A stretch of 40,248 bases of DNA, taken from Rhodoferax sp. (lineage in GTDB: Bacteria > Pseudomonadota > Gammaproteobacteria > Burkholderiales > Burkholderiaceae_C). This document shows positions 4,525-33,814 of the stretch, one piece after another; position 1 is the first letter of the stretch; each line of letters starts with the position of its first letter. Below the pieces are notes generated by a model that was given only the letters and a program-made list of their open reading frames with translations, was not told the origin of the DNA and did no database searches. Location of the stretch: positions 1 to 40,248 of the forward strand of contig JANYJD010000039.1 of the NCBI GenBank assembly GCA_025358555.1, given 5' to 3'. The position numbers were made by a program, and so were the translations under genes.

Positions 4525-4953
4525 TTGCAACCAACGGAACTGAGTGCTTACGTGATTTACGGCGTACCCGTGTACGCGCCTTGCACAGGCGTCGTGGAGG
4601 TTGCCATCGACGGCTTGCCCGACATGCCAGTGCCGCAAATGGATCGGGAGCATATGGCGGGGAACCACGTGCTGCTGCGCTGCGCAGGTGCCGATGTGTT
4701 GCTGGGGCACCTTCAACCCGGCAGCATTAAAGTCAAGGCTGGCGATCAAGTCGCAGTCGGTCAGCTTGTAGGGGCAGTAGGCAATTCTGGCAATACCGGC
4801 GAGCCGCACCTGCACATTCATGCGCAGCAGGCCGGCACGGCGCTCGAACCCATTTCTGGCAGCCCGCTGCCGATACGCTTGAATGGCCGGTTTCTGGTGC
4901 GAAATGACCGGGTTATCGGCTCCGTGAAAAGTCAAAAGGATTGGACATCATGA
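4525..4953 (+). pseudogene. M23 (LytM-type) metallopeptidase remnant, 5' truncated
   Basis: From about residue 68 of the 209-residue ORF the sequence changes to an M23 peptidase domain: YGVPVYAPCTGVVEVA, DREHMAGNHVLLRC, GHLQPGSIKVKAGDQVAVGQ and GNTGEPHLHIHA. HLHIH contains the HxH zinc-binding motif. The N-terminal portion that usually carries a membrane anchor is missing, replaced by the end of the quinone reductase. The frame stops at TGA 4951-4953, overlapping the ATG of the VIT gene (ATGA), so translation coupling to the transporter may persist. Whether the 209-residue product beginning at 4324 is made is unknown; it lacks an export signal, so a functional wall peptidase is unlikely. Confidence 0.75.
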
Positions 4954-5639
4954 GACACACCGAAAGACACCGCACCTCCCGCATCGGCTGGCTGCGCGCG
5001 GCCGTGCTGGGGGCCAACGACGGCATTGTGTCCACCGCCAGCCTGATTGTGGGCGTTGCGGCTGCCAGCGCCAGCCAGAGCAGCCTGCTGCTCACCGGAG
5101 TCGCAGGCCTGGTGGCGGGTGCCATGTCGATGGCGGCGGGCGAGTTTGTGTCGGTGCATTCGCAGGCCGATACCGAAATGGCCGATCTGGCCCGCGAGCG
5201 CGCCGAGCTGGAGAAAGACCCCGCCGCCGAGCACCGGGAGTTGGCCGCCATTTATGTCACACGCGGGCTGGATTCGACGCTGGCGCAACAAGTGGCTACG
5301 CAATTGATGAAACACGATGCGCTGGGCACGCACGCGCGCGAAGAGCTGGGCATATCCGAGGCGCATGGCGCACAACCCGTTCAAGCGGCGCTGTCGTCAG
5401 CTGCCAGCTTTGCAGTGGGGGCAGCGCTGCCGCTGGCAGTCACCGCACTGGCGGTGGGGCCGCACCTGATTGCCTGGATCACGGTGATGTCGCTTGGCTT
5501 TCTTGCTTTGTTGGGAGTTGCTGCTGCTAAAGCGGGCGGTGCCAACGTCTGGACGGGTGCCTGGCGCGTCACGTTCTGGGGTGCCCTGGCCATGGCCATC
5601 ACGGCGGGCGTGGGATCGCTGTTTGGGGCGGCACTGTGA
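4950..5639 (+). CDS. VIT1/CCC1-family (DUF125) iron/manganese transporter
   Basis: This 229-residue membrane protein starts with WLRAAVLGANDGIVSTASLIVGV, the signature first helix of the VIT1/CCC1 family of Fe2+/Mn2+ transporters. MSMAAGEFVSVHSQADTE follows in helix 2. A cytoplasmic metal-binding helical stretch rich in Glu (RERAELEKDPAAEHRELA) precedes three C-terminal membrane segments. I chose ATG 4950 rather than TTG 4941 because AAAAGGA lies 9 bases ahead. It overlaps the upstream frame by ATGA and the downstream MFS gene by GTGA, so the three are co-transcribed. Likely role: moving divalent iron or manganese across the inner membrane. Confidence 0.9.
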   Translation: MRHTERHRTSRIGWLRAAVLGANDGIVSTASLIVGVAAASASQSSLLLTGVAGLVAGAMSMAAGEFVSVHSQADTEMADLARERAELEKDPAAEHRELAAIYVTRGLDSTLAQQVATQLMKHDALGTHAREELGISEAHGAQPVQAALSSAASFAVGAALPLAVTALAVGPHLIAWITVMSLGFLALLGVAAAKAGGANVWTGAWRVTFWGALAMAITAGVGSLFGAAL

Positions 5640-12755: not shown

Positions 12756-12789
12756 AGACGTTGATGCGTCTCCCGTGCCACATTTGCAC

Positions 12790-13518
12790 ATGACCCCTGA
12801 TGCTACGCAATACACCCAACGAGACACGGCTGCCAGCTGGGCACAAGACACGCCGCCTGTGCACCACGCGCCCAAGGACTTCTCAGACCATTTCGCGCTG
12901 GGTTTCACCAAGCTGTTGCGCTTGCTGGCCGACACGTTTTTCGCCAAGCGTTATGGCCATCGGGCGATTGTTCTGGAAACCGTGGCCGCTGTGCCAGGCA
13001 TGGTCGGCGGCACCATCCAGCACCTCAACAGCCTGCGCTGCATGGCGGATGACGGCGGCTGGATCCGCACCCTGATGGAAGAAGCCGAGAACGAGCGCAT
13101 GCACCTGATGACATTCATCCAGATCGCCCGGCCGACCCAATTCGAGCGGCTGGTGGTGTTGTTGGCGCAGTGGATTTTTTATGTGGGTTTTTTCGGGCTG
13201 TACCTGGTGTCCTCGCGCACCGCCCACCGCGTGGTGGGTTATTTTGAAGAAGAGGCGGTGCTCAGCTACACGCTGTACCTGCAGGAAATTGACGAAGGAC
13301 GTTCGCCCAATGTACCTGCTCCTGCCATTGCAAAACATTACTGGCATTTGCCCGACGACGCCACCCTGCGCGATGTGGTGCTGGTGGTGCGGGCCGACGA
13401 GGCGCACCACCGAGACATCAACCACGGCTTCTCCAGCAAGCTGGCAGGCGAGCCGGTGGATACCGTTCAGGTGGCACCCTACCCACGCCATGCGGATGAG
13501 ATCCGGATGACGGCTTGA
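12790..13518 (+). CDS. aox: Alternative oxidase (cyanide-resistant quinol oxidase)
   Basis: A 242-residue diiron alternative oxidase. All iron-ligand motifs are visible: LETVAAVPGM, EEAENERMHLM, YFEEEAVLSYT and RADEAHHRDINHGF. A central hydrophobic pair (LVVLLAQWIFYVGFFGLYLV) is the membrane-binding region. The enzyme oxidises ubiquinol and reduces oxygen to water without pumping protons. I prefer ATG 12790 to the in-frame GTG 12775; neither has a strong ribosome site. It lies 4 bp upstream of pgm and probably shares its transcript. Alternative oxidase is scattered among proteobacteria. There is no adjacent NO-responsive regulator. Confidence 0.93.
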   Translation: MTPDATQYTQRDTAASWAQDTPPVHHAPKDFSDHFALGFTKLLRLLADTFFAKRYGHRAIVLETVAAVPGMVGGTIQHLNSLRCMADDGGWIRTLMEEAENERMHLMTFIQIARPTQFERLVVLLAQWIFYVGFFGLYLVSSRTAHRVVGYFEEEAVLSYTLYLQEIDEGRSPNVPAPAIAKHYWHLPDDATLRDVVLVVRADEAHHRDINHGFSSKLAGEPVDTVQVAPYPRHADEIRMTA

Positions 13519-15280: not shown

Positions 15281-15327
15281 TGCAGGTCCTGTTTGGCGGA
15301 TAAAGCCCAGGCTTGCCAAAGATTTCG

Positions 15328-15356
15328 GGAACGAGATGCTCTGGCGTTGCATCTAA
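15328..15356 (+). promoter_or_regulatory. ECF-type promoter in front of the sigma factor gene
   Basis: GGAACGA at 15328 and ATCTAA at 15351, separated by 16 bases, match the RpoE/ECF pattern GGAACTT-N16-GTCTAA. The element ends 16 bases before ATG 15373, implying a very short leader. It suggests that the sigma factor transcribes its own operon. Confidence 0.55.
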
Positions 15357-15372
15357 CATTTGAAAGCACGCC

Positions 15373-16086
15373 ATGTACAACGCAGCCGCCACAGCACAAG
15401 CCACCGTTTGGGAGCACGCCAGCGACACACAACTCGCCGCCAGTGCGGCAAGTGGCAATGAGTCCGCGTTTACATGCATCATGCGCCGCCACAACCGGCT
15501 GCTTTTTCGCACCGCGCGCAGCATTCTGAAAAACGACGCAGAAACCGAAGACGCGTTGCAAGAGGCCTATCTACAGGCCTGGCGCGCGCTGGGCAGTTTT
15601 CGCGCCGACGCCAAACTGTCAACCTGGCTGGTACGCATCGTCATCAACCAGTCGCTGGGGCGCCTGCGCCGCAAGGGTGCCGAAGTTATTCCGCTGGAAG
15701 GTGCGATGGAACTCGATGAGGCGCATGGCGAGTTGTCGGTCGAAGACGATCCCGACCAGCGGCCTGACAAAGTCGCGATGCGCGCAGAAATCCGGCGGCT
15801 GATGGAAGCCCGCATTGACTTGCTGCCTGATGTCTTTCGCACCGTGTTCATGCTGCGTGCGGTAGAGGAACTGAGTGTGGACGAGACCGCTGTGGCTTTG
15901 AACATTGGGGCGGCCACGGTGCGAACCCGTTTTTTCCGCGCACGCAGTCTGCTGCGCGAGGGGCTGTCGCGCGACGTCGATATGGCGATTGGCGACGCAT
16001 TCTCATTCGCTGGTGTGCGTTGTGACCGCGTAGTGGCCAACGTGCTTGCGAAGCTTGCAAGCGAGCGGGAATCTCCCCAATCGTGA
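15373..16086 (+). CDS. ECF-type RNA polymerase sigma factor
   Basis: A 237-residue sigma-70 family protein. Region 2 runs from about 35 to 100 (RTARSILKNDAETEDALQE, then FRADAKLSTWLVRIVINQSLG), an acidic linker follows (LDEAHGELSVEDDPDQRPD), and region 4 (about 155-200) reads LLPDVFRTVFMLRAVEELS and AALNIGAATVRTRFFRARSL-like sequence. A C-terminal tail contains FAGVRCDRVVANVL with a single Cys. No anti-sigma factor with a membrane segment lies next to it; the next gene is a Tat-exported ferritin-like protein. A consensus-like ECF promoter just upstream suggests autoregulation. It probably controls the five-gene block up to 18751. Confidence 0.9.
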   Translation: MYNAAATAQATVWEHASDTQLAASAASGNESAFTCIMRRHNRLLFRTARSILKNDAETEDALQEAYLQAWRALGSFRADAKLSTWLVRIVINQSLGRLRRKGAEVIPLEGAMELDEAHGELSVEDDPDQRPDKVAMRAEIRRLMEARIDLLPDVFRTVFMLRAVEELSVDETAVALNIGAATVRTRFFRARSLLREGLSRDVDMAIGDAFSFAGVRCDRVVANVLAKLASERESPQS

Positions 16087-16109
16087 TTGCATCATTCAAG
16101 GAAACTGTG

Positions 16110-16679
16110 ATGTCATTCTTTCTTATGCCGACTCCTGTCGCGGCGCGCCGACTTTTTTTGGGCCGCTCGGGCCTGGTGCTTTCCGGCGCCGCAGTTGCTC
16201 TGCTGGCCGGCAACGGGGCGCTGGCCGCAAAAACCGGAGGTGCCAACCCCAAAGATGTGCAAATCCTCAACACCGCGCTGGGTGCTGAACTTGAGGCCAT
16301 TGCGGCCTACCAGCTGGGGGCCGAGAGCAAGCTGCTGGAGAAGCCGGTGCTGGACCTTGCGCTGACGTTCCAGGGCCACCACAAGGAACACGCGGCCGTG
16401 TTGATCCAGACCGTCGAGAAGCTGGGCGGCAAAGCGGTCGTGGCCAAGGCCAAATACAACTTCCCGGTCGATCAGTTGAAGTCGCAGGCGGATGTGCTCC
16501 GGTTCGCAGCCAAGCTGGAGCAGGGCGCGGTCAGTGCCTATCTGGGTGCCGTTCCGCTGTTCGGCAACCGCGACTTGGCCAAGGCGGCTGCAAGCATTCT
16601 GGGCGACGAGGCCATGCACTGGGCGATCCTGCGCCAGGCGCTGGGTGAAGTGCCCGTGCCGTCTGCATTCATGGCCTGA
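16110..16679 (+). CDS. Tat-exported ferritin-like domain protein
   Basis: A 189-residue protein with a twin-arginine signal (ARRLFLGRSGLVLSGAAVALLAG, cleavage near ALAA), followed by a four-helix ferritin-like domain. Candidate metal ligands are visible in the four helices: GAELEAIAAYQLG, FQGHHKEHAAVL, LEQGAVSAYLG and LGDEAMHWAIL, an Glu/ExxH arrangement repeated twice. I chose ATG 16110 because AAGGA lies 7 bases before it; the ORF track starts earlier at 16083 and would bury the Tat signal. Tat export implies folding with cofactor in the cytoplasm. It may store or oxidise iron, or scavenge peroxide, in the periplasm. It is 23 bp after the sigma gene and 2 bp before a cytochrome gene. Confidence 0.85.
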   Translation: MSFFLMPTPVAARRLFLGRSGLVLSGAAVALLAGNGALAAKTGGANPKDVQILNTALGAELEAIAAYQLGAESKLLEKPVLDLALTFQGHHKEHAAVLIQTVEKLGGKAVVAKAKYNFPVDQLKSQADVLRFAAKLEQGAVSAYLGAVPLFGNRDLAKAAASILGDEAMHWAILRQALGEVPVPSAFMA

Positions 16680-16681
16680 CC

Positions 16682-17107
16682 ATGCGATGGCGGCTCGCAG
16701 CCCGTGCACGTGTCGGCGCCTTCTTCGGTGCCTTCGCTGGTGCCTTGGCCCTGGGTGTTCCCGCGTTGGCGCGGGCAGCGCCCGATGCGGTGCACGGCGA
16801 GCAGGTCTACGCCCGTTGCCTGGCCTGCCACGCACTGGCCTATGACCGTGTGGGGCCGCGCCATTGTGGGCTGTTGGGGCGGCGGGCTGGCAGCGTGGCC
16901 GGGTTCAATTACTCGGCGGCGATGAAAAAATCGCGCATCACCTGGAACGACAAGACGCTGGACCGCTTTCTCACCAAGCCGCTCAACATGGTGCCTGGCA
17001 CGGCCATGACCTACGACGGCGTCGCGGACCCGAAGGACCGCGCCGACCTGATTGCTTACCTGAAGCATGCCAATGACTCCCCCGAATGCGCCAAACGGTT
17101 GCATTAA
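16682..17107 (+). CDS. Monoheme cytochrome c (class I, c2-like)
   Basis: A 141-residue periplasmic cytochrome with a signal peptide (about 1-33, ending ALARAAP), heme site CLACH in YARCLACHALAYDRVGP, and the class I features GLLGRRAGSVAGFNYSAAMK, WNDKTLDRFLTKP and probable axial Met in VPGTAMTYDGV. Terminal helix residues RADLIAYLKH match the c2 fold. It starts 2 bp after the ferritin-like gene, so it is co-translated. It likely carries electrons to or from the neighbouring ferritin-like or two-heme proteins; the partner is inference. Confidence 0.9.
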   Translation: MRWRLAARARVGAFFGAFAGALALGVPALARAAPDAVHGEQVYARCLACHALAYDRVGPRHCGLLGRRAGSVAGFNYSAAMKKSRITWNDKTLDRFLTKPLNMVPGTAMTYDGVADPKDRADLIAYLKHANDSPECAKRLH

Positions 17108-17127
17108 CCCACTCAAAAGGAACAGCC

Positions 17128-18338
17128 ATGAACACCCATCCATTATTGGCTGCGGCCATCTCGGCCGCCGTTGCGTCAATTGCAGCGTGTGGTGGTGATT
17201 CCCTCGACAACTCGTCAACCGGACAAGCCGCACTGGTCGCGCAGGGGCAACAGATTTTCCGCTTCGATACCTTTGGCGACGAGACGCAGTGGACCGACAA
17301 GCTGCGTCTGCATGAAACGATCAGCACCAAAGTGGACCCGACGACCGCACTTTCGGTCGGTCTCAAGGTTGATGCCGAGGCGCTGCCGCCGGCCGTGGTG
17401 CAGGGCATTCAAAACAAAACCATCAGTCTGACTGACCCTGCCACCACCGTCGCGCTGATCAAGCTCAATGCCGTGGTCGGCATCAAGGGCACCGTGGAGT
17501 CCGTCAATGGCAAAGACACACTGACGCGAGTCGGCGTGACCTGCGCCCTGTGCCATTCGACGGTTGACAATTCATTCGCGCCGGGTATTGGAAAGCGGCC
17601 TGATGGCTGGCCGAATCTCCAGCTGACTCCGGGGCCATCATTGCCTTGTCGCCGGCGCTGAGCGCCGTGCAAAAGGCGGTCTATAACTCCTGGCGCCCCG
17701 GCAAGTACGACCCGCGCTTCAATCTGGACGGCAAGAACGGCCCCCAGGTCATCCCGCCGGCCTACGGCCTGCAGGGCGTCAACAAGATCATCTCGACCGG
17801 CGACGGAGACGACCTGTCCTACTGGAACCGCTATGTGGGCGTCACCCAGATGGGCGGGCATGGAAACTTTTCCGAGCCACGTACTGGTGTCAACGTCACC
17901 AATGGCACGGACGACCTGATCACCGCCAAGTTGCCGGCCCTGCAGGCCTATCAGCTTTCACTTGAAGCACCGCCGCCACCGGCCGGCAGCTTCGATGCGG
18001 CAGCGGCCGCGCGTGGCAAGCTGGTATTCAACAATGCCGGCACCTGTGTGACTTGCCACAGCGGCGACAAGTTCACCGACGCCAACACGCGGCTGCACCC
18101 GCCCAGTGACGCTGTCAGCGAACCCGAGCCGAACGGCGCGCCCAGCTACGCCTCGCGCAGTGCCACCAAGCAGTACCGGACCGCGCCGCTGGCAGGGCTG
18201 TGGCAGCACGCGCCTTATTTCCACAACGGAACAGCGCCAACTTTGGAAGCGGTGGTACAAACTTACAACACGAAGCGGGCGTTGGGTCTGACGCCTGCTC
18301 AAGCTGCTGATCTGGTCCAGTACCTGAAAACCCTGTGA
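17128..18338 (+). pseudogene. Two-heme cytochrome c lipoprotein, single-base frameshift
   Basis: The protein starts at ATG 17128 (AAAAGGA before it) with a lipoprotein signal (VASIAACGG), then a domain with heme site CALCHSTVDNSFAPG. The frame is lost after NLQLTPG at the GGGG run 17631-17634; adding one G restores GAIIALSPALSAVQKAVYN and the second ORF, which holds FNLDGKNGPQVIPPAYGLQ, the second heme site CVTCHSGDKF and the C-terminal APYFHNGTAPTLEAV. With the base restored the product is about 403 residues and complete. It is therefore either a fresh mutation or a sequencing error. The family is known only as cytochrome c; HNGTAPTLEAV is shared with cytochrome-peroxidase-like proteins. It lies 20 bp after the monoheme cytochrome. 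Confidence 0.85.
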
Positions 18339-18751
18339 CCACTGGTACCTGCAAACACGCGCTCCGCCGCGAGTGCTCGGAAGAAGTCATTGCAGGGGGC
18401 ATTACGCGCAGAGTGTTTTCCCATGCGATGGCAGGCACCGCCACGCTGCTGTTGGTGCATGGCTGTGGTGGTGGAGGTGTTAGCGGCAGCACAGCACCGT
18501 CTGGAACAAGCTGCGGTGCCAGCGGCACGGCGATCTCGCTCAACCACGGTCATGCGTTGGTCATCCCGCTGATGGATCTCGATTCCATGGTTGGCATAAC
18601 TTACAGCAGCCCGGGCTCTGCTGACCATGACCACACCTTGATGCTTGAGGTGGCCCAGTTGCGCCAGTTGAAGGGCGGGGCAAGCGTGACGGTCGAGGCG
18701 TCTGTGCAGTCAGCGCACACTCATGTCTTGACGCTGGCCTGCGTTTCTTGA
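18335..18751 (+). CDS. Tat/lipobox protein with three His-x-His motifs, function unknown
   Basis: A 138-residue protein starting GTG 18335, overlapping the cytochrome stop by GTGA. ITRRVFSHAMAGTATLLLVHGC (about 23-44) is a Tat signal ending in a lipobox Cys44. The mature part carries HGH at 71-73, HDH at 98-100 and HTH at 128-130, each within a beta-strand-like stretch (NHGHALVIP, ADHDHTLMLE, AHTHVLTLAC), plus Cys60 and Cys136 that could form a disulphide. The regular spacing of about 27-30 residues suggests a small beta-sandwich with a His cluster suited to binding Cu, Zn or Ni. I have seen similar small secreted proteins without assigned function. It is the last gene of the sigma-led operon. 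Confidence 0.7.
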   Translation: MTTGTCKHALRRECSEEVIAGGITRRVFSHAMAGTATLLLVHGCGGGGVSGSTAPSGTSCGASGTAISLNHGHALVIPLMDLDSMVGITYSSPGSADHDHTLMLEVAQLRQLKGGASVTVEASVQSAHTHVLTLACVS

Positions 18752-18848
18752 GATCCGGCGCGGTGGAACTCGCTGAAGGAATGCGGATGGAATCTGCATT
18801 GATTCTCCGGACGTCGACGGCGCTGCTGGCCATCGCAGCAGTCGGCAG

Positions 18849-18914
18849 ACCTGCCACAGCGGGGACAAGTTCACCGATGCCAATACGCGGCTGCACCCGC
18901 CCACAGGCGCCGTT
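18849..18914 (+). pseudogene. Fragment of a second two-heme cytochrome c (heme-2 region)
   Basis: One frame reads TCHSGDKFTDANTRLHPPTG, nearly identical to the second heme region of the cytochrome at 17128 (TCHSGDKFTDANTRLHPPSD). Just before it, an out-of-frame signal-peptide-like stretch (18781-18840, MRMESALILRTSTALLAIAA) suggests that another truncated gene start was joined here. The copy is cut on the right at 18915 by an IS5-type relic and resumes at 19289. Confidence 0.8.
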
Positions 18915-19271
18915 AGGGAAACGCAGATTTATTCACCGGATTTGCCAACCTGCATCGCTCCCGAAACGTTAAAGGTAGGTAGTCCACAAAGCCAGGTCAA
19001 GATGAACCCTACAACGCCAAGTCAAATCAGTTTCGCCTTAGCCGAATACGAGGGCAAGAAGAAGATAACGCGGCGGGAGATATTTCTTGGCAAGATGCAG
19101 CAAGTGGTTCCCTGGGGTCAATTGAAAGAAGTCATAGAGCCGCACTACCCCAAGAGCGGCAAACGGGGCCAACGCCCGGGGATTCAGGAGCTTCGCCAGC
19201 TACCGGGCGAGGATTCTGTTTTATTGCGGCAAGCTGGAGATGGGGTGCGGGTGAGGAAGAAATCACAGTGA
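18915..19271 (+). mobile_element. Truncated IS5-family element inside a cytochrome pseudogene
   Basis: The left boundary reads AGGGAAACGCAGATTTATTC, similar to known IS5-type termini. From ATG 19002 the frame gives MNPTTPSQISFALAEYEGKK, RREIFLGKMQQVVPWGQL and VIEPHYPKSGKRG, the standard N-terminus of IS5-family transposases. After about 60 residues the similarity stops, so most of the catalytic domain has been deleted. GAAGAAATCACAG near 19256 weakly resembles the inverse of the left end and may mark the right end. The insertion interrupts a cytochrome gene (18849 and 19289). The 109-residue ORF 18942-19271 is not a functional gene. Confidence 0.78.
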
Positions 19272-19288
19272 AATCAACGAAGAACCAT

Positions 19289-19405
19289 TTTCATAACGGC
19301 ACCGCGCCGGCTTTGGAGGCGGTGGTCCAGACCTACAACACCAAGATGGCGCTGGGTTTGACGGCAACGCAAATGGCGAATTTGACCCAGTACCTCAAGT
19401 CCCTT
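19289..19405 (+). pseudogene. C-terminal fragment of the second two-heme cytochrome c
   Basis: FHNGTAPALEAVVQTYNTKM and LTQYLKSL correspond to the C-terminus of the cytochrome at 17128 (FHNGTAPTLEAVVQTYNTKR, LVQYLKTL). About 35 codons that lie between this part and the heme-2 fragment in the other copy are missing, replaced by the IS5 relic. The original stop is lost and the frame runs on without meaning. Confidence 0.8.
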
Positions 19406-19544
19406 GAAGCATGGGGCCGGATAGGGCGGCGCAAAGCAGGCCATCGGTGGAAATCAGGGATGCAGCGCAAGCTCGCCGCAAATTTCCCCAATCGGGTTGG
19501 GTCGCCTCCCTCTGGCATCGGGAGACCATCCTGGCGCGGCCAGT

Positions 19545-19810: not shown

Positions 19811-20260
19811 TCAAGGGTAGAGCGCAACCTGGCCGCGAATCTCGCCACCCGGGTTGGCGGCGGTGTGCAAATTGACGTACCAATTTCCATTCATCACGGC
19901 ATCCATCTGGGCCGGTGTGAGAGTTGCCGTGCCACGGATCGGGCTTTCCAGGCTGCCTGTAAATGGCAGCGCCACACCGGCGTTTTGTCCCGTCGCCGCC
20001 GGGCCATGGAAGTGCCCTGCGGTCGCCGGGCCGCTCAGGCCGGAATATGTGACGGTCCAGCTCAGCACGCGGGTTGTTTTGTCCAGATTGGCAGAGAGTG
20101 TCCCGCTGCCATTGCTGTTGGAAGCGGGCACTTCGTTGGCACCTGACAGGCGGGCGTTAAGCGTGCTGACGTTCGACGCCATGGGGGACGTGTTGCAGGC
20201 ACTCAGGGCCAGCAGGCTGGCCAGCAAAACGCTGGATGTCAAAGTTCGATAAGGGGTCAT
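19811..20260 (-). CDS. CHRD-domain lipoprotein
   Basis: A 149-residue protein with a lipoprotein signal (LLASLLALSAC, Cys about 22) and a CHRD domain covering most of the rest: LSGANEVPASNSNGSGTLSA, GLSGPATAGHFHGPA and NLHTAANPGGEIRGQV are characteristic. ATG 20260 is chosen over the ORF-track start at 20359 because GGAGATCTAC precedes it and the signal peptide then starts correctly. CHRD was first noted in chordin; in bacteria its role is unknown, though the GHFHGPA and NLHT histidines are conserved. It faces the next gene divergently across 384 bp. Confidence 0.9.
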   Translation of the reverse strand: MTPYRTLTSSVLLASLLALSACNTSPMASNVSTLNARLSGANEVPASNSNGSGTLSANLDKTTRVLSWTVTYSGLSGPATAGHFHGPAATGQNAGVALPFTGSLESPIRGTATLTPAQMDAVMNGNWYVNLHTAANPGGEIRGQVALYP

Positions 20261-20644
20261 GTAGATCTCCAGTGGGTTAAAAATCAGGGTGAACGTGAAT
20301 TGTGCAAGGTGTCGGGCTGGCCGACTGTGCGCTGGCGAACATAGAACCAATTTTTTCATTCACGCGGGTGTTCCCGGTTAGGGTCATTTATGCCGGCCAC
20401 GGTAGTTTCGGCTGCACCGCCTGCAAACGCCCTGACCGCAATTGCACAACCGCATGCGCGACGGCACGCGCTTTTTGGTGGCCGCCGATTCTGCAGACAG
20501 GTCGTAGCCGGGATCGGCATAGCCAGGGCCGGCTTTCTGCGTTGCCAAATATTCTTTTGCGACTGTGTTGGCTAGCGCACAGACGGCCCTCGCATGTGGC
20601 AGGTACCGTGTGCAGCTTGCGTAGTATTTCACCTTGGAGCCTTC
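20261..20644. other. Divergent intergenic region with two imperfect palindromes
   Basis: No gene is supported here. Two diverged relatives of the dispersed TGTGCG palindrome are present: CTGTGCG-CTGG-CGAACA at 20325-20341 and CTGTG...GCTAGC...CACAG at 20563-20582, one near each gene start. A minus-strand 88-codon ORF (20384-20650) shows no recognisable domain. The promoters of both flanking genes should lie in this stretch. Confidence 0.5.
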
Positions 20645-28491: not shown

Positions 28492-29511
28492 ATGGACCCC
28501 GGTGACCTGGTCATAGCGCGGCCCGAGGGCCTCTATTGCCCGCCCGGCGACTTTTACATTGACCCCTGGCGCGCGGTTGACCGCGCCGTCATCACCCACG
28601 GCCACAGCGACCATGCACGTCCTGGCAACGGCCACTACTTGACCGCAGCGCCAGGCGCACCCATTTTGCGCAAGCGGCTGGGGGCCGACATCACGCTGGA
28701 CACCCTGGCTTATGGCCAGGCCATCAACCACCACGGCGTCACCGTCAGCCTGCACCCTGCGGGCCACGTGCTGGGTTCGGCGCAGGTGCGGCTTGAATAC
28801 CAGGGCCAGGTGTGGGTTGCGTCGGGCGACTACAAGCTGGAAGACGACGGCACGTGCGCACCGTTTGAGCCGGTGCCCTGCCATACCTTTATCACTGAAT
28901 CAACCTTCGGCCTGCCGATATACCGCTGGACGCCGCAACCAGAATTGTTTGCCGACATCAACGCATGGTGGCAAAGCAATGCCGCCAACCAGCGCACCAC
29001 CGTGCTGTTTTGCTACGCGCTGGGCAAGGCGCAGCGCCTGCTGTCGGGGCTCGACCCCTCCATTGGGCCAATCTTTGTGCACGGTGCCATGGCCCCGCTC
29101 AACCAGATATACCGCGAGGCCGGTGTGCCCCTGCCGCCCACCTGCACAATGGCCGAAATGTCTGACGCTGCGCAACTGCGCCGCAGCATGGTGTTGGCAC
29201 CGCCCTCGGCCCAGGGCACACCCTGGATGAAGCGCTTTGGCGACTATGCCGATGGCTTTGCCAGCGGCTGGATGCATTTGCGCGGCACGCGGCGCAGGCG
29301 TGGCGTGGATCGGGGCTTTGTCATGTCAGACCACGCCGACTGGCCTGGCCTGCAACAGGCGATTGCCGCCACGGGAGCTGAGCGTGTGTTTGTGACGCAT
29401 GGGCAGGTGGATGTGATGGTGCGCTGGCTCAGCGAGCAAGGCCTGCAGGCGCAGGGGTTTGTCACGGAGTACGGCGATGAAGAGGCCGGTGTGGAAGGGG
29501 TGTCCGCATGA
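28492..29511 (+). CDS. Ligase-associated DNA exonuclease (metallo-beta-lactamase/beta-CASP type)
   Basis: A 339-residue nuclease of the SNM1/mRNA-3'-end-processing-like superfamily annotated as ligase-associated DNA exonuclease. Metal motifs: THGHSDHARPGNG (HxHxDH), HPAGHVLGSAQV, ASGDYKLEDDG and a final SDHADWPGL; FVTHGQVDVMVRWL lies in the C-terminal part. It is the first of four genes, each overlapping the next by exactly 4 bp (ATGA), so they are translated together. It would trim DNA ends in the cytoplasm before ligation. Confidence 0.93.
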   Translation: MDPGDLVIARPEGLYCPPGDFYIDPWRAVDRAVITHGHSDHARPGNGHYLTAAPGAPILRKRLGADITLDTLAYGQAINHHGVTVSLHPAGHVLGSAQVRLEYQGQVWVASGDYKLEDDGTCAPFEPVPCHTFITESTFGLPIYRWTPQPELFADINAWWQSNAANQRTTVLFCYALGKAQRLLSGLDPSIGPIFVHGAMAPLNQIYREAGVPLPPTCTMAEMSDAAQLRRSMVLAPPSAQGTPWMKRFGDYADGFASGWMHLRGTRRRRGVDRGFVMSDHADWPGLQQAIAATGAERVFVTHGQVDVMVRWLSEQGLQAQGFVTEYGDEEAGVEGVSA

Positions 29512-31178
29512 AAGCCTTTGCCGACCTGTACACGCGGCTGGACGCCACCACCAGCAGCAACAGCAAACTGGCGGCTATGCAATCCTACTTTGGCAGCGCC
29601 CCAGCGGCGGATGCCGCCTGGGCGGTGTATTTTCTGGCGGGCGGCCGACCCCGGCGCGTCGTGCCGACCAAGCTGTTGCGTGAACTGGCCATTCAAAGCA
29701 GTGGCCTGTCAGACTGGCTGTTTGAAGAAAGCTACCAGGCCGTGGGCGACCTGGCAGAGACCATCACGCTTCTGCTGCCGCTGTCAGAGCACACATCTAC
29801 AGATGGCCTGGCTAACTGGGTGCAAGACCGTCTTTTGCCCCTGCGCAGCGTGCCACCCGATCAACTGGTGCCAACCCTGCTCCCGCTACTGCTGCAGCTT
29901 GACCGCGCCAGCCAGTTGGTGTTCATCAAGCTGATCACCGGCAGTTTTCGCGTGGGCGTGTCGCGGCTGCTGGTCACGCGCGCGCTGGCGGCCTTAAGCG
30001 GCATTGACGCCAAGCGCATTGCACAGCGCTTGGTGGGCTACACCGACATCTCCGCGCGGCCCACGGCTGCTCTGTTTGAGCGGCTGGTTGCCGTGGCGGG
30101 CGATGACGTGCAGGACGCGAGGGACCCCGGCCAGCCGTATCCGTTTTTCCTCGCGCATGCGCTGCAAACCGACGGCTCGACATTTGATGTGCAACTTGGC
30201 GCTCCGGCTGACTGGCAGGTGGAATGGAAGTGGGACGGCATCCGCGCGCAACTGGTCAAGCGCGAAGGGCAGATCTGGATTTGGTCGCGTGGTGAAGAGC
30301 TGGTGACTGATCGTTTTCCAGAACTTGCCGCACTGGCCGCCCTTGTGCCCGACGGCACCGTGCTGGATGGTGAAATCGTCGTGTGGAAAGACGCGCAGGT
30401 GCAACCATTCGCCCTGCTGCAGCAGCGCATTGGCCGCAAGACGCTGGGCGCCAAGCTGCTGGCCCAAGTGCCTGTGGCAATGCTGGGGTACGACCTGCTG
30501 GAGTGGCAGGGAGCGGACTTTCGCCAGCAGCTACAGTCGGCGCGGCGCCAGCAGCTTGAAGCGGTGGTGGCGCTCTGCGGCCAGCCGCAGCTACGCCTGT
30601 CAGCGTTGCTCCAAGGCGATGCTTGGGCGGATTTTGCACGCCAGCGCGACCGGGCGCGCAGCTTGGGTGTGGAAGGCCTCATGCTCAAACACAAGACCGC
30701 CCAGTACGGCGTTGGCCGCACCAAAGATGTGGGCGTGTGGTGGAAGTGGAAGATTGACACGTACACGGTAGACGCCGTGCTGATCTACGCGCAGGCCGGG
30801 CATGGCCGGCGCGCCAGCCTGTATACCGACTTCACCTTTGCCGTGTGGGACTCGCCCGACGGGGTGGCTGATCGAAAGCTGGTGCCGTTCGCCAAAGCAT
30901 ACTCGGGCCTCACCGACTCTGAAATGCGCCAGGTAGACGCGATCATCCGCAAGACCACAGTCGAGAAATTTGGGCCGGTGCGCAGCGTCACGCCCACGCA
31001 GGTGTTTGAGCTGGGCTTTGAAGGCATCGCCCTGAGCGCGCGCCACAAAAGTGGCATTGCGGTGCGCTTTGCGCGCATGCTGCGCTGGCGCCAGGACAAG
31101 CCGCTGGCTGAGGCTGACACGCTGGACGCTCTGCGCTCGCTGCTGCCACTATCAAGCGTCGGGGGAGTTGTCAATTGA
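29508..31178 (+). CDS. ATP-dependent DNA ligase
   Basis: A 556-residue ligase with an N-terminal DNA-binding domain (about 1-200), the adenylation domain and an OB-fold. The nucleotidyl-Lys is in [12 protein letters not shown] (about Lys241); other motifs are [32 protein letters not shown] and WWKWKID. It belongs to the ligase type that co-occurs with the Lhr-like helicase, the metallo-beta-lactamase exonuclease and PdeM. The organism's essential NAD-dependent LigA would be elsewhere. This ligase presumably seals breaks in a damage-response pathway. Confidence 0.94.
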
Positions 31179-33814
31179 CGTTGGCCGATGGGTGGTTCAA
31201 GCAGCACGGCTGGAAGGCATTTCCTTTCCAGCGTGAAGTCTGGCAGGCGGTGGCGCAAGGAAAGTCAGGCCTGCTGCATGCGACCACGGGGTCGGGCAAG
31301 ACGTATGCGGTGTGGCTTGCAGCGTTGAACTGCTTCGCTGTGCCAGCAAAAAAATCACCGGCTGTGCCGTCGAAAGTGCTCGCGCCTGAAACGGTTTCGC
31401 GGTCGAAAAAACGTGCACCGCCCGCGCCAGCGCTCACGGTGCTGTGGATCACGCCGATGCGCGCACTGGCAGCCGACACCGAACGCGCCCTCAAGGCGCC
31501 GCTGCAAGAAATGAACCTGTCTTGGAGCGTGGGCGTGCGCAGCGGCGACACCACCAGCGCCGAGCGCGCACGCCAGGCCCGGCGCCTGCCTACCACGCTG
31601 ATCACCACGCCCGAGAGCTTGACCTTGCTGCTCAGCCAGCCGGAGGCCCGCACCATGTTTGACGGCCTGCGCATGGTCGTGGTGGACGAATGGCATGAGC
31701 TGATGGGCAGCAAGCGCGGTGTGCAGTTGCAACTTGCGCTGGCCCGGCTGCGGCAGTGGCAGCCTGCCCTGATCACTTGGGGCCTGTCCGCCACGCTGGG
31801 CAACCTGCCTTATGCGCTGGAGGTGCTGGTGCCGCAAAGCGCAAATGAGCTGCCTGTCGCACAAGGTGTCGCGCAGAGCGGCCCGGTCTTGATCCAGGGC
31901 AAACAGGCCAAGGAGCTGAATGTGGACACCCTGCTGCCCAAGAGCCTTGACCGCTTCCCCTGGGCCGGCCACCTGGGGCTGCGCATGCTGCCGCAGGTGG
32001 TGGATCAAATTGAGCACAGCGTCACGTCGCTCATCTTCACCAATACCCGATCCCAGTCGGAGCTGTGGTTTCAGGCGCTGCTGGAGGCGCGGCCCGACTG
32101 GGCCGGCCTGATGGCACTGCACCATGGCTCGCTGGACCGCAAGGTGCGTGAGTGGGTGGAACTGGCGCTCAAAGAAGGGCGGCTCAAGTGCGTGGTGTGC
32201 ACGTCCAGTCTTGACCTGGGCGTCGATTTTTTGCCGGTGGAGCGCGTGCTTCAGGTCGGCTCGCCCAAAGGCGTGGCGCGCCTGATGCAGCGTGCCGGGC
32301 GCTCTGGCCATGCGCCGGGGCGGCCCTCGCGCCTGACGCTGGTGCCCACACACAGTCTGGAGTTGCTGGAGTTCATCGCCGCGCAGGACGCCGTCGCTGC
32401 GCGCGCCATTGAGCCGCGCCTGTCGCCGCACAAGCCGCTAGACGTGCTGGTGCAGCATCTCGTCACTGTAGCGCTGGGCGGCGGTTTCACGGCAGACGCC
32501 TTGCTGGAAGAGGTGAGAGCCACATTTGCGTACCGCGACTTGACAGATGCAGAGTGGCAGTGGGCGCTCGCATTTGTGCAGCATGGCGGCAACTCGCTCG
32601 GCGCTTACCCCGACTACCGTCGCGCCATCCCCAACGCGCAAGGGGTGTGGCACGTGCCCGACGCGCAACTGGCCCGGCGCCACCGTATGGGCATCGGCAC
32701 CATCGTGAGCGACGCAAGCATGGCGGTGAAGTTCTTCAGCCGGGGCGGTGGCGGCAAGTCGCTCGGCACGGTGGAAGAAAGCTTTATTGCCCGGCTCAAA
32801 CCCGGCGATCACCTGCTGTTTGGTGGTCGCCTGCTGGAACTGGTGCGCGTGCATGAAATGACCGCCTACGTGCGCCCTGGCACGGGCAAAAAACCGGCCG
32901 TGCCGCGCTGGAATGGCGCCCGCATGTCGCTGTCCAGCGAACTTGCAGAGGCCATGGTCATGCGCTTGAACGCTGCGGCAGCCGGGCAATTTGACGGGTC
33001 AGAGATGCGATTGCTCAAACCCCTGCTGGATGTTCAGATGCGCTGGTCTGCCTTGCCCACCACGCGCACCCTGCTGGCTGAAACGCTGCACTCGCGGGAA
33101 GGCTGGCACCTGTTCCTCTATCCGTTTGCGGGACGCACGGTGCATTTGGGCCTGGCCAGCCTGCTGGCGTGGCGCACGGCCCGCCACCGGCCCCATACGT
33201 TTTCCATCGCGGCCAACGACTATGGGTTTGAAATGCTGTCGGCCGTTGAAATCAACTGGGCGCAAGCATTTGGCCCTGAGATATTCAGCACCCAGGATCT
33301 GCTGCCAGACGTCATCGCCAGCCTGAACGCCAGCGAGCTGGCGCAGCGCCGCTTCAGGGAAATCGCGCGCATCGCGGGTCTGGTGTTCAACGGCTTTCCG
33401 GGTGCGTCCAAAAGCGCCAAGCAGTTGCAGGCCTCGTCCAGCTTGTTCTTCGAAGTGTTTCGCAAGCATGACGCAGGCAACCTGCTGTTGACCCAGTCCC
33501 AACAGGAGGTGCTGCGCGACGAACTGGATGTGCAACGGCTTGGCACTACGCTGGACCAGCTTCAAACCAAAACCCTGCAATGGCAAGCCATTGAGCGCGC
33601 TACGCCGTTTGCCTTTGCGCTGGTGGTGGAGCGCCTGCGTGAAAGCGTCACCTCAGAAAAATTGGGAGACCGCATTGCACGCATGGTGGCGGATCTGGAG
33701 AAGGCGGCGAATGCGCCCGGTGCGCCCGCGCCGTCAAATTTTCAAGGCCAGCGCCCGTACAGGCGAACCCGCTTTCGCCCGGTGGTTAAACCTCCAGCAA
33801 ATCACGCAGCATGA
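31175..33814 (+). CDS. Ligase-associated DEXH-box helicase (Lhr family)
   Basis: An 879-residue superfamily 2 helicase. Walker A is [12 protein letters not shown] (about 31-42), motif II is [11 protein letters not shown], motif [11 protein letters not shown], and motif [26 protein letters not shown] is the Lhr-type motif between Ia and Ib. The long C-terminal part matches the Lhr winged-helix and the domain found in the ligase-associated subgroup. It overlaps both neighbours by 4 bp. It likely translocates along DNA 3' to 5' and prepares damaged DNA for the exonuclease and ligase; the direction is from the family, not from this sequence. Confidence 0.94.

Follow-up and report, generated by a model that had tools for sequence, protein, structure and literature searches.

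The window analysed here, a 40,248-nucleotide stretch of a Rhodoferax sp. genome (contig JANYJD010000039.1, from a 4.75-Mb draft in 384 contigs), carries an operon in which the gene of an extracytoplasmic function (ECF) sigma factor is followed by genes for a ferritin-like protein, exported by twin-arginine translocation (Tat), and an exported cytochrome c. This sigma-ferritin-cytochrome c triad is real, and its sigma factor belongs to ECF29, a known group that a preliminary description of the locus had not recognised. The same ECF29 promoter is found before the sigma gene and, in relatives, before unlinked ferritin, di-heme cytochrome and folE genes. It is highly likely that these promoters define an ECF29 regulon in Burkholderiales; to judge from them, the sigma factor very probably controls, in many members of the order, the exported ferritin-like protein and the cytochromes c that accompany it. 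The Burkholderiales operon was not found as a described system in the literature searched, in line with the preliminary description; the 2021 ECF reclassification, not part of that literature, may mention its context.

A conserved sigma-ferritin-cytochrome c triad

The gene order and spacing described earlier are present, with gaps of 23 bp between the sigma and ferritin-like genes, 2 bp between the latter and the cytochrome c gene and 20 bp before the open reading frame (ORF) that starts at 17128, and with a last overlap of 4 bp into an ORF for a histidine-rich (HxH) protein (Table 1). Conservation was assessed in 80 related loci, which hold the top 80 matches of the genome collection to the ferritin-like protein. 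They belong to Comamonadaceae and related genera, Massilia, Herminiimonas, Alcaligenaceae, Thiobacillus and Thauera; having been picked via ferritin similarity, the sample over-represents close relatives. The closest relatives in the named genome collection are Burkholderiales, e.g. Rhizobacter, Variovorax and Polaromonas. Adjacency was counted in the 77 readable loci, and di-heme cytochrome and lipoprotein genes in the 63 long ones. In 72/77 loci the sigma gene is the immediate upstream neighbour of the ferritin gene, and in 70/77 the cytochrome c gene is its immediate downstream neighbour; linkage of the three genes is therefore above chance. Ferritin and cytochrome genes share an ATGA stop/start overlap in 32 of these 70. 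No anti-sigma gene lies beside the sigma gene in the window, as had been noted, nor was one found among the conserved neighbours of the 80 loci. Synteny across distant genera, which had been proposed as the test of the five-gene arrangement, thus extends to sigma, ferritin and monoheme cytochrome c, in part to the di-heme cytochrome (9/63, in addition to copies with the same promoter elsewhere) and not to the lipoprotein (0/63).

Table 1 Features of the operon and of the sequence 3' of it (all on the + strand; positions in the window)
Feature	Position	Strand	Basis or remark
ECF29-type promoter GGGAACGAGATGCTCTGGCGTTGCATCTAAC	15327..15357	+	15 bp 5' of sigma start codon
ECF sigma factor, 237 aa, group ECF29	15373..16086	+	Pfam Sigma70_r2, r4_2; NCBIfam PRK11922.1
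Sigma C-terminal extension, residues 208-233, FxFxGxRCDRIV; candidate sensor	15994..16071	+	alignment, model
Tat-exported ferritin-like protein (predicted signal), 189 aa	16110..16679	+	PF13668 Ferritin_2
Exported class I cytochrome c, 141 aa, one CxxCH (CLACH), PGTxM axial Met motif	16682..17107	+	PF00034
Di-heme cytochrome c, N-terminal half (first CxxCH), ends at frameshift	17128..17661	+	intact relatives
Di-heme cytochrome c, C-terminal half (second CxxCH, RoxA/CcP/MauG-like C-terminus)	17646..18338	+	PF21419, PF00034
His-rich (HxH) putative Tat lipoprotein ORF	18335..18751	+	orphan
Remnant, first 26 codons, small membrane protein gene	18787..18864	+	69% identity over 26 aa to 124-aa protein of loci L130/L187
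Fragment duplicating part of di-heme cytochrome gene	18848..18920	+	86% DNA identity over 73 bp

The sigma factor reaches 303 bits against its NCBIfam family (cut-off 204) and is the only member above the cut-off in its own genome. We assign it to ECF29 because its promoter, the absence of an anti-sigma gene and a C-terminal extension all agree with RpoE8 of S. meliloti. The extension, which lies beyond sigma-4, is found in 75 aligned relatives, where G214, R216, C217 and D218 are invariant, and the structure model confidently predicts it to form an extra helix (214-233). Its FxFxGxRC core, with the cysteine, is retained in rhizobial ECF29 sigmas, and none of the eight other ECF-like sigmas of the window's genome has the motif. 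ECF29 is among the groups listed as having a regulatory extension whose type is undefined (PMC8999054). A plasmid of the alphaproteobacterium Methylocystis rosea (L200) encodes an ECF29 sigma 60% identical to that of the window, with two motif copies upstream; it lies near encapsulin and DUF488/DUF2945 genes, and the ferritin-cytochrome pair was not found there.

ECF29 promoters in cis and in trans

The promoter earlier proposed ahead of the sigma gene is real and conserved among relatives. In the window it reads GGGAAC-N17-CATCTAAC, and the consensus upstream of sigma genes is GGGAAC-N17-CATCYAAY (also written GRAACG-N16-CATCYAAY), with identical spacing across loci; some Variovorax have the variant TGAAACG. 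The strict pattern stands upstream of sigma in 62/72 related loci, most of the remainder differing by one mismatch. Both the window promoter and those of its relatives fit the ECF29 motif published for RpoE8 (-35 GGGAAC, -10 GCATCCAA), a sigma assigned to ECF29 for which no anti-sigma was reported (PMC6180224).

In 1.12 Mb of related loci the motif was matched 103 times vs. 0 times in the reversed control (some loci overlap, and not all matches are independent), and in 12 genomes 18 times vs. 3 in reversed controls. It occurs once in the window's own genome, where the reversed control gave 1-2 matches, so that a lone match in a single genome means little by itself and the weight lies with the relatives. 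Among the 103 matches, 70 precede sigma genes, 21 ferritin-cytochrome genes, 4 di-heme genes apart from the triad, 3 folE and 1 a gene for an FAD/NAD oxidoreductase. Sites in trans are clearest where the genes have separated: sigma and ferritin lie about 660 kb apart in one genome (G005) and on two contigs in another (G072), in both cases with the motif before each, and in locus L120 the sigma gene diverges from the ferritin-cytochrome pair with one motif copy facing each. Di-heme genes apart from the triad carry the motif in L082, L094 and G140, folE in L057 and G072, which very probably represent one genome, and the oxidoreductase gene in L096. In G140 the site pointing in the direction opposite to the di-heme gene stands before a gene for a 124-aa membrane protein, and this gene is the intact counterpart of the remnant 3' of the window operon (Table 1). 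Ten motif sites in G188 were set aside, as they precede repetitive genes unrelated to the system. GTP cyclohydrolase and flavin reductase as putative members of the regulon recall oxidative-stress regulons such as SoxRS, although the cases are few. The earlier claim that the sigma factor governs the operon is thus supported on its promoter side, through promoters shared in trans.

A proposed envelope stress function and its alternatives

The ferritin-like protein scores 123.4 bits against Ferritin_2 (gathering score 24.7). In its predicted Tat signal a hydrophobic stretch comes after R13-R14, a pair that does not vary in 22 close homologues. Six predicted ligands of a dinuclear metal site (E60, H91, H94, E137, E167 and H170) are invariant in 35 proteobacterial homologues; the position of H91 is occupied by Glu in RvFeMP-1 and in Thermus, and the change from Glu to His runs throughout the proteobacterial clade. 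The structure model, predicted from an alignment with rows from the window and genome contigs only (a plasmid-derived row was left out), is a confident four-helix bundle, whose nearest folds are Rv2844, bacterioferritin and RvFeMP-1.

Among solved structures RvFeMP-1 is also the closest in sequence, besides being a top fold match, and the FeMP family has been shown to be a phosphatase linked to desiccation (PMC11616004). The ferritin-like protein might accordingly be a metabolite phosphatase like tardigrade RvFeMP-1 or Deinococcus DRB0118, serving stress recovery and not redox chemistry. We consider this improbable: the FeMP ligand set (E51, E90, H93, E132, D135, D162) is not retained, Glu90 aligning with His91 and Asp135 with Ala140, and the protein is constantly partnered by a cytochrome c, in keeping with redox chemistry. 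Another tardigrade candidate, the Mn-peroxidase AMNP, was dropped as a beta-sandwich protein unrelated to RvY_06210.

Taken as a whole, the locus is probably the Burkholderiales form of an ECF29 regulon directed at metal or peroxide stress in the cell envelope, while for the envelope redox or metal stress role by itself we lean only slightly towards acceptance. The sigma factor may be kept inactive in the cytoplasm, or be activated there, by way of its own C-terminal extension and the invariant Cys217; such self-sensing is a tentative hypothesis, and a rather doubtful one. Active sigma would then amplify itself from its own promoter, as in the autoregulation known of sigma factors, and switch on the periplasmic module. 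The ferritin-like protein, exported in the manner of known Tat substrates, would bind two metals at an unusual 3-Glu/3-His site and oxidise metal or reduce peroxide, and the co-translated cytochrome c, of a family known as one-electron carriers, would deliver or remove the electrons. The di-heme cytochrome, where present, may add a further redox enzyme, and the purpose of the whole would be defence of the envelope against metal or peroxide stress.

The involvement of iron, copper or peroxide, also suggested in the preliminary description, is something we infer. It is possible, though less than likely, that the module handles periplasmic iron or copper rather than peroxide, by ferroxidase activity or sequestration, the cytochrome c accepting the electrons. 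The ferritin fold, the exported location, the copper protein of a sibling ECF29 operon and a VIT-family Fe/Mn transporter gene in the window (4941-5636) are consistent with this; on the other hand, no iron or copper uptake or efflux gene recurs beside the 80 loci, and a peroxiredoxin-like protein encoded beside the ferritin sigma/anti-sigma locus of T. aquaticus points to peroxide. With the anti-sigma gene absent and linkage so tight, ferritin and cytochrome could also be the sensor, relaying the periplasmic redox state to the sigma factor, and not primarily its effectors. The increase in amcY expression (2.6-3.2 fold) upon deletion of rpoE8-SMb20593 in S. meliloti (PMC6180224) would agree with such a sensor, but that effect may be polar, no transmembrane part links ferritin or cytochrome to the cytoplasm and the sigma and ferritin-cytochrome genes can be unlinked, all of which makes a sensor quite improbable.

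An early lead from the literature was the sulfite response of ECF26-type sigmas, as in S. meliloti RpoE1/RpoE4, both groups being anti-sigma-era ECF groups with cytochrome neighbours. However, the sigmas of ECF26 come with anti-sigma partners and use a GGAATA/GT promoter, as against GGGAAC/CATCYAA and no anti-sigma gene in the window, and no sulfite oxidase is found among the conserved neighbours of the 80 loci. Contradicted by promoter and anti-sigma context, this explanation was dropped and is hardly credible.

Several points weigh against the envelope-stress regulon that we favour. The regulon is predicted from sequence, and the putative membership of folE and the oxidoreductase rests on very few independent cases. 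The metal site of the ferritin-like protein is predicted from an alignment and a model. The score of the di-heme protein is under the cut-off of the curated cytochrome c peroxidase (CcP) family, and its gene is frameshifted in the window. Finally, 126-fold overexpression of RpoE8 gave zero targets, and its function and regulation are stated in print to be unknown (PMC6180224); an extra signal or partner may therefore be needed, or the motif may not suffice. In the same 2018 study the members of ECF29 were said not to have been studied in detail, and their regulation was called a mystery. For this group the Burkholderiales loci would supply a testable regulon defined by its promoters, whose targets lie both in cis and in trans, as well as a residue that is a candidate for sensing and an exported metal protein in which the ligand set is altered. 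A bolder proposal, which we regard as unlikely at present, is that ECF29 sigmas are one-component sensors, in which the FxFxGxRC extension would sense oxidant or metal directly, without an anti-sigma, commanding an undescribed exported 3-His/3-Glu dinuclear enzyme with a dedicated cytochrome c.

Downstream genes and comparison with known systems

The fourth gene, described earlier as that of a two-heme cytochrome c, does contain both CxxCH halves, although in two reading frames and not as one open frame (Table 1). It is a single-frame gene in relatives L041, L042, L058, L070, L074, L085 and L088, and alignment to L041 places the window one base short near 17,620-17,640. Downstream of the shift, differences fall on codon positions 1/2/3 as 23/16/82, i.e. 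82 of 121 at the third position; as this bias is kept, the frameshift is recent or a sequencing error in the draft. The C-terminal half shows weak similarity to the di-heme CcP 1nml in its C-terminal third only, and with 46 bits against a cut-off of 150 it was rejected as a member of the curated di-heme cytochrome c peroxidases (NF040606).

Membership of the HxH lipoprotein in the system is not supported and it is dropped from it, contrary to the preliminary description. No homologue was found in 121 relatives, 369 genomes of the class, the plasmid collection or Pfam. The lipobox of the protein (VHGC) is atypical.

Sequence 3' of the operon (18848-19410) is degenerate and, by eye, contains a second di-heme C-terminal fragment near 19286-19408. 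The di-heme fragments flank sequence of which the genome holds other copies (78-96% identity), many of them at contig ends, and the stretch, which is without a Pfam match, looks like an insertion-sequence remnant. A CHRD-domain protein is encoded on the minus strand about 1.1 kb past the operon (19811-20359); on Thermus plasmids a CHRD protein gene lies directly 3' of the ferritin-like gene. On the 5' side, the sigma gene is preceded by a phosphoglucomutase gene, also seen near the Variovorax RA8 locus, directly 5' of which lies an alternative oxidase gene (12775-13518; PF01786, 277 bits). Overlapping genes for an ATP-dependent DNA ligase and then an Lhr-type helicase (29508-33811) resemble a ligase-associated helicase repair cluster.

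Each component can be compared with a known system. The di-heme cytochrome shares two CxxCH motifs and a FHNGTAPTLEAVVQTYN C-terminus with the di-heme CcP/MauG/RoxA superfamily, but its similarity is limited to the C-terminal third and remains under curated NCBIfam cut-offs. The ferritin-like protein has the four-helix fold and predicted dinuclear site of RvFeMP-1 and DRB0118, and differs from them in two ligands (Glu to His, Asp to Ala), Tat export and linkage to a cytochrome.

Ferritins at a greater distance (about 50-60% identity) still have the cytochrome, but often lie beside a different, SigK-like sigma with an RskA-type anti-sigma. Exported ferritin-like proteins lie by a SigK-like ECF sigma and RskA-like anti-sigma in L012, L154-L157, L159-L161 and L206, from Acidithiobacillus and Burkholderiales to Thermus, and the sigma/anti-sigma pair precedes the ferritin gene on Acidithiobacillus and Thermus plasmids. 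These operons (e.g. L154, L155, L159, L012; Thermus L206) share with that of the window the ferritin-like protein and, in many cases, the same cytochrome c after it, but their sigma is unrelated (27-29% identity) and accompanied by a classical RskA-type anti-sigma (PF10099 shown for L159). A SigK/RskA module was rejected for the window, where an RskA-type anti-sigma is absent. That exported ferritin-like proteins are repeatedly paired with ECF sigmas of unrelated kinds, in Proteobacteria as well as in Deinococcota, suggests that they form an envelope stress output of wide occurrence, a description of which was not found in the literature searched.

The closest parallel of the sigma factor is the RpoE8 (SMb20592) system, with the same promoter (GGGAAC, GCATCCAAT), no anti-sigma and the C-terminal FxFxGxRC extension. 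Rhizobial plasmid kin of the window sigma lie in DUF4142-cupredoxin operons without an anti-sigma, and one of them (L202) fits S. meliloti RpoE8 in gene order, with a promoter one difference from that published. DUF4142 has been termed ferritin-like (PMC11317620); a common origin with Ferritin_2 is not claimed, since profile comparison gave a probability of 1.5% and no sequence homology was found. RpoE8, with SMb20593 (DUF4142) and AmcY (amicyanin), thus resembles the window operon in having an adjacent exported ferritin-like protein and a small electron carrier, and differs from it in that the window sigma is 40.6% identical, Ferritin_2 replaces DUF4142 and cytochrome c replaces the cupredoxin.

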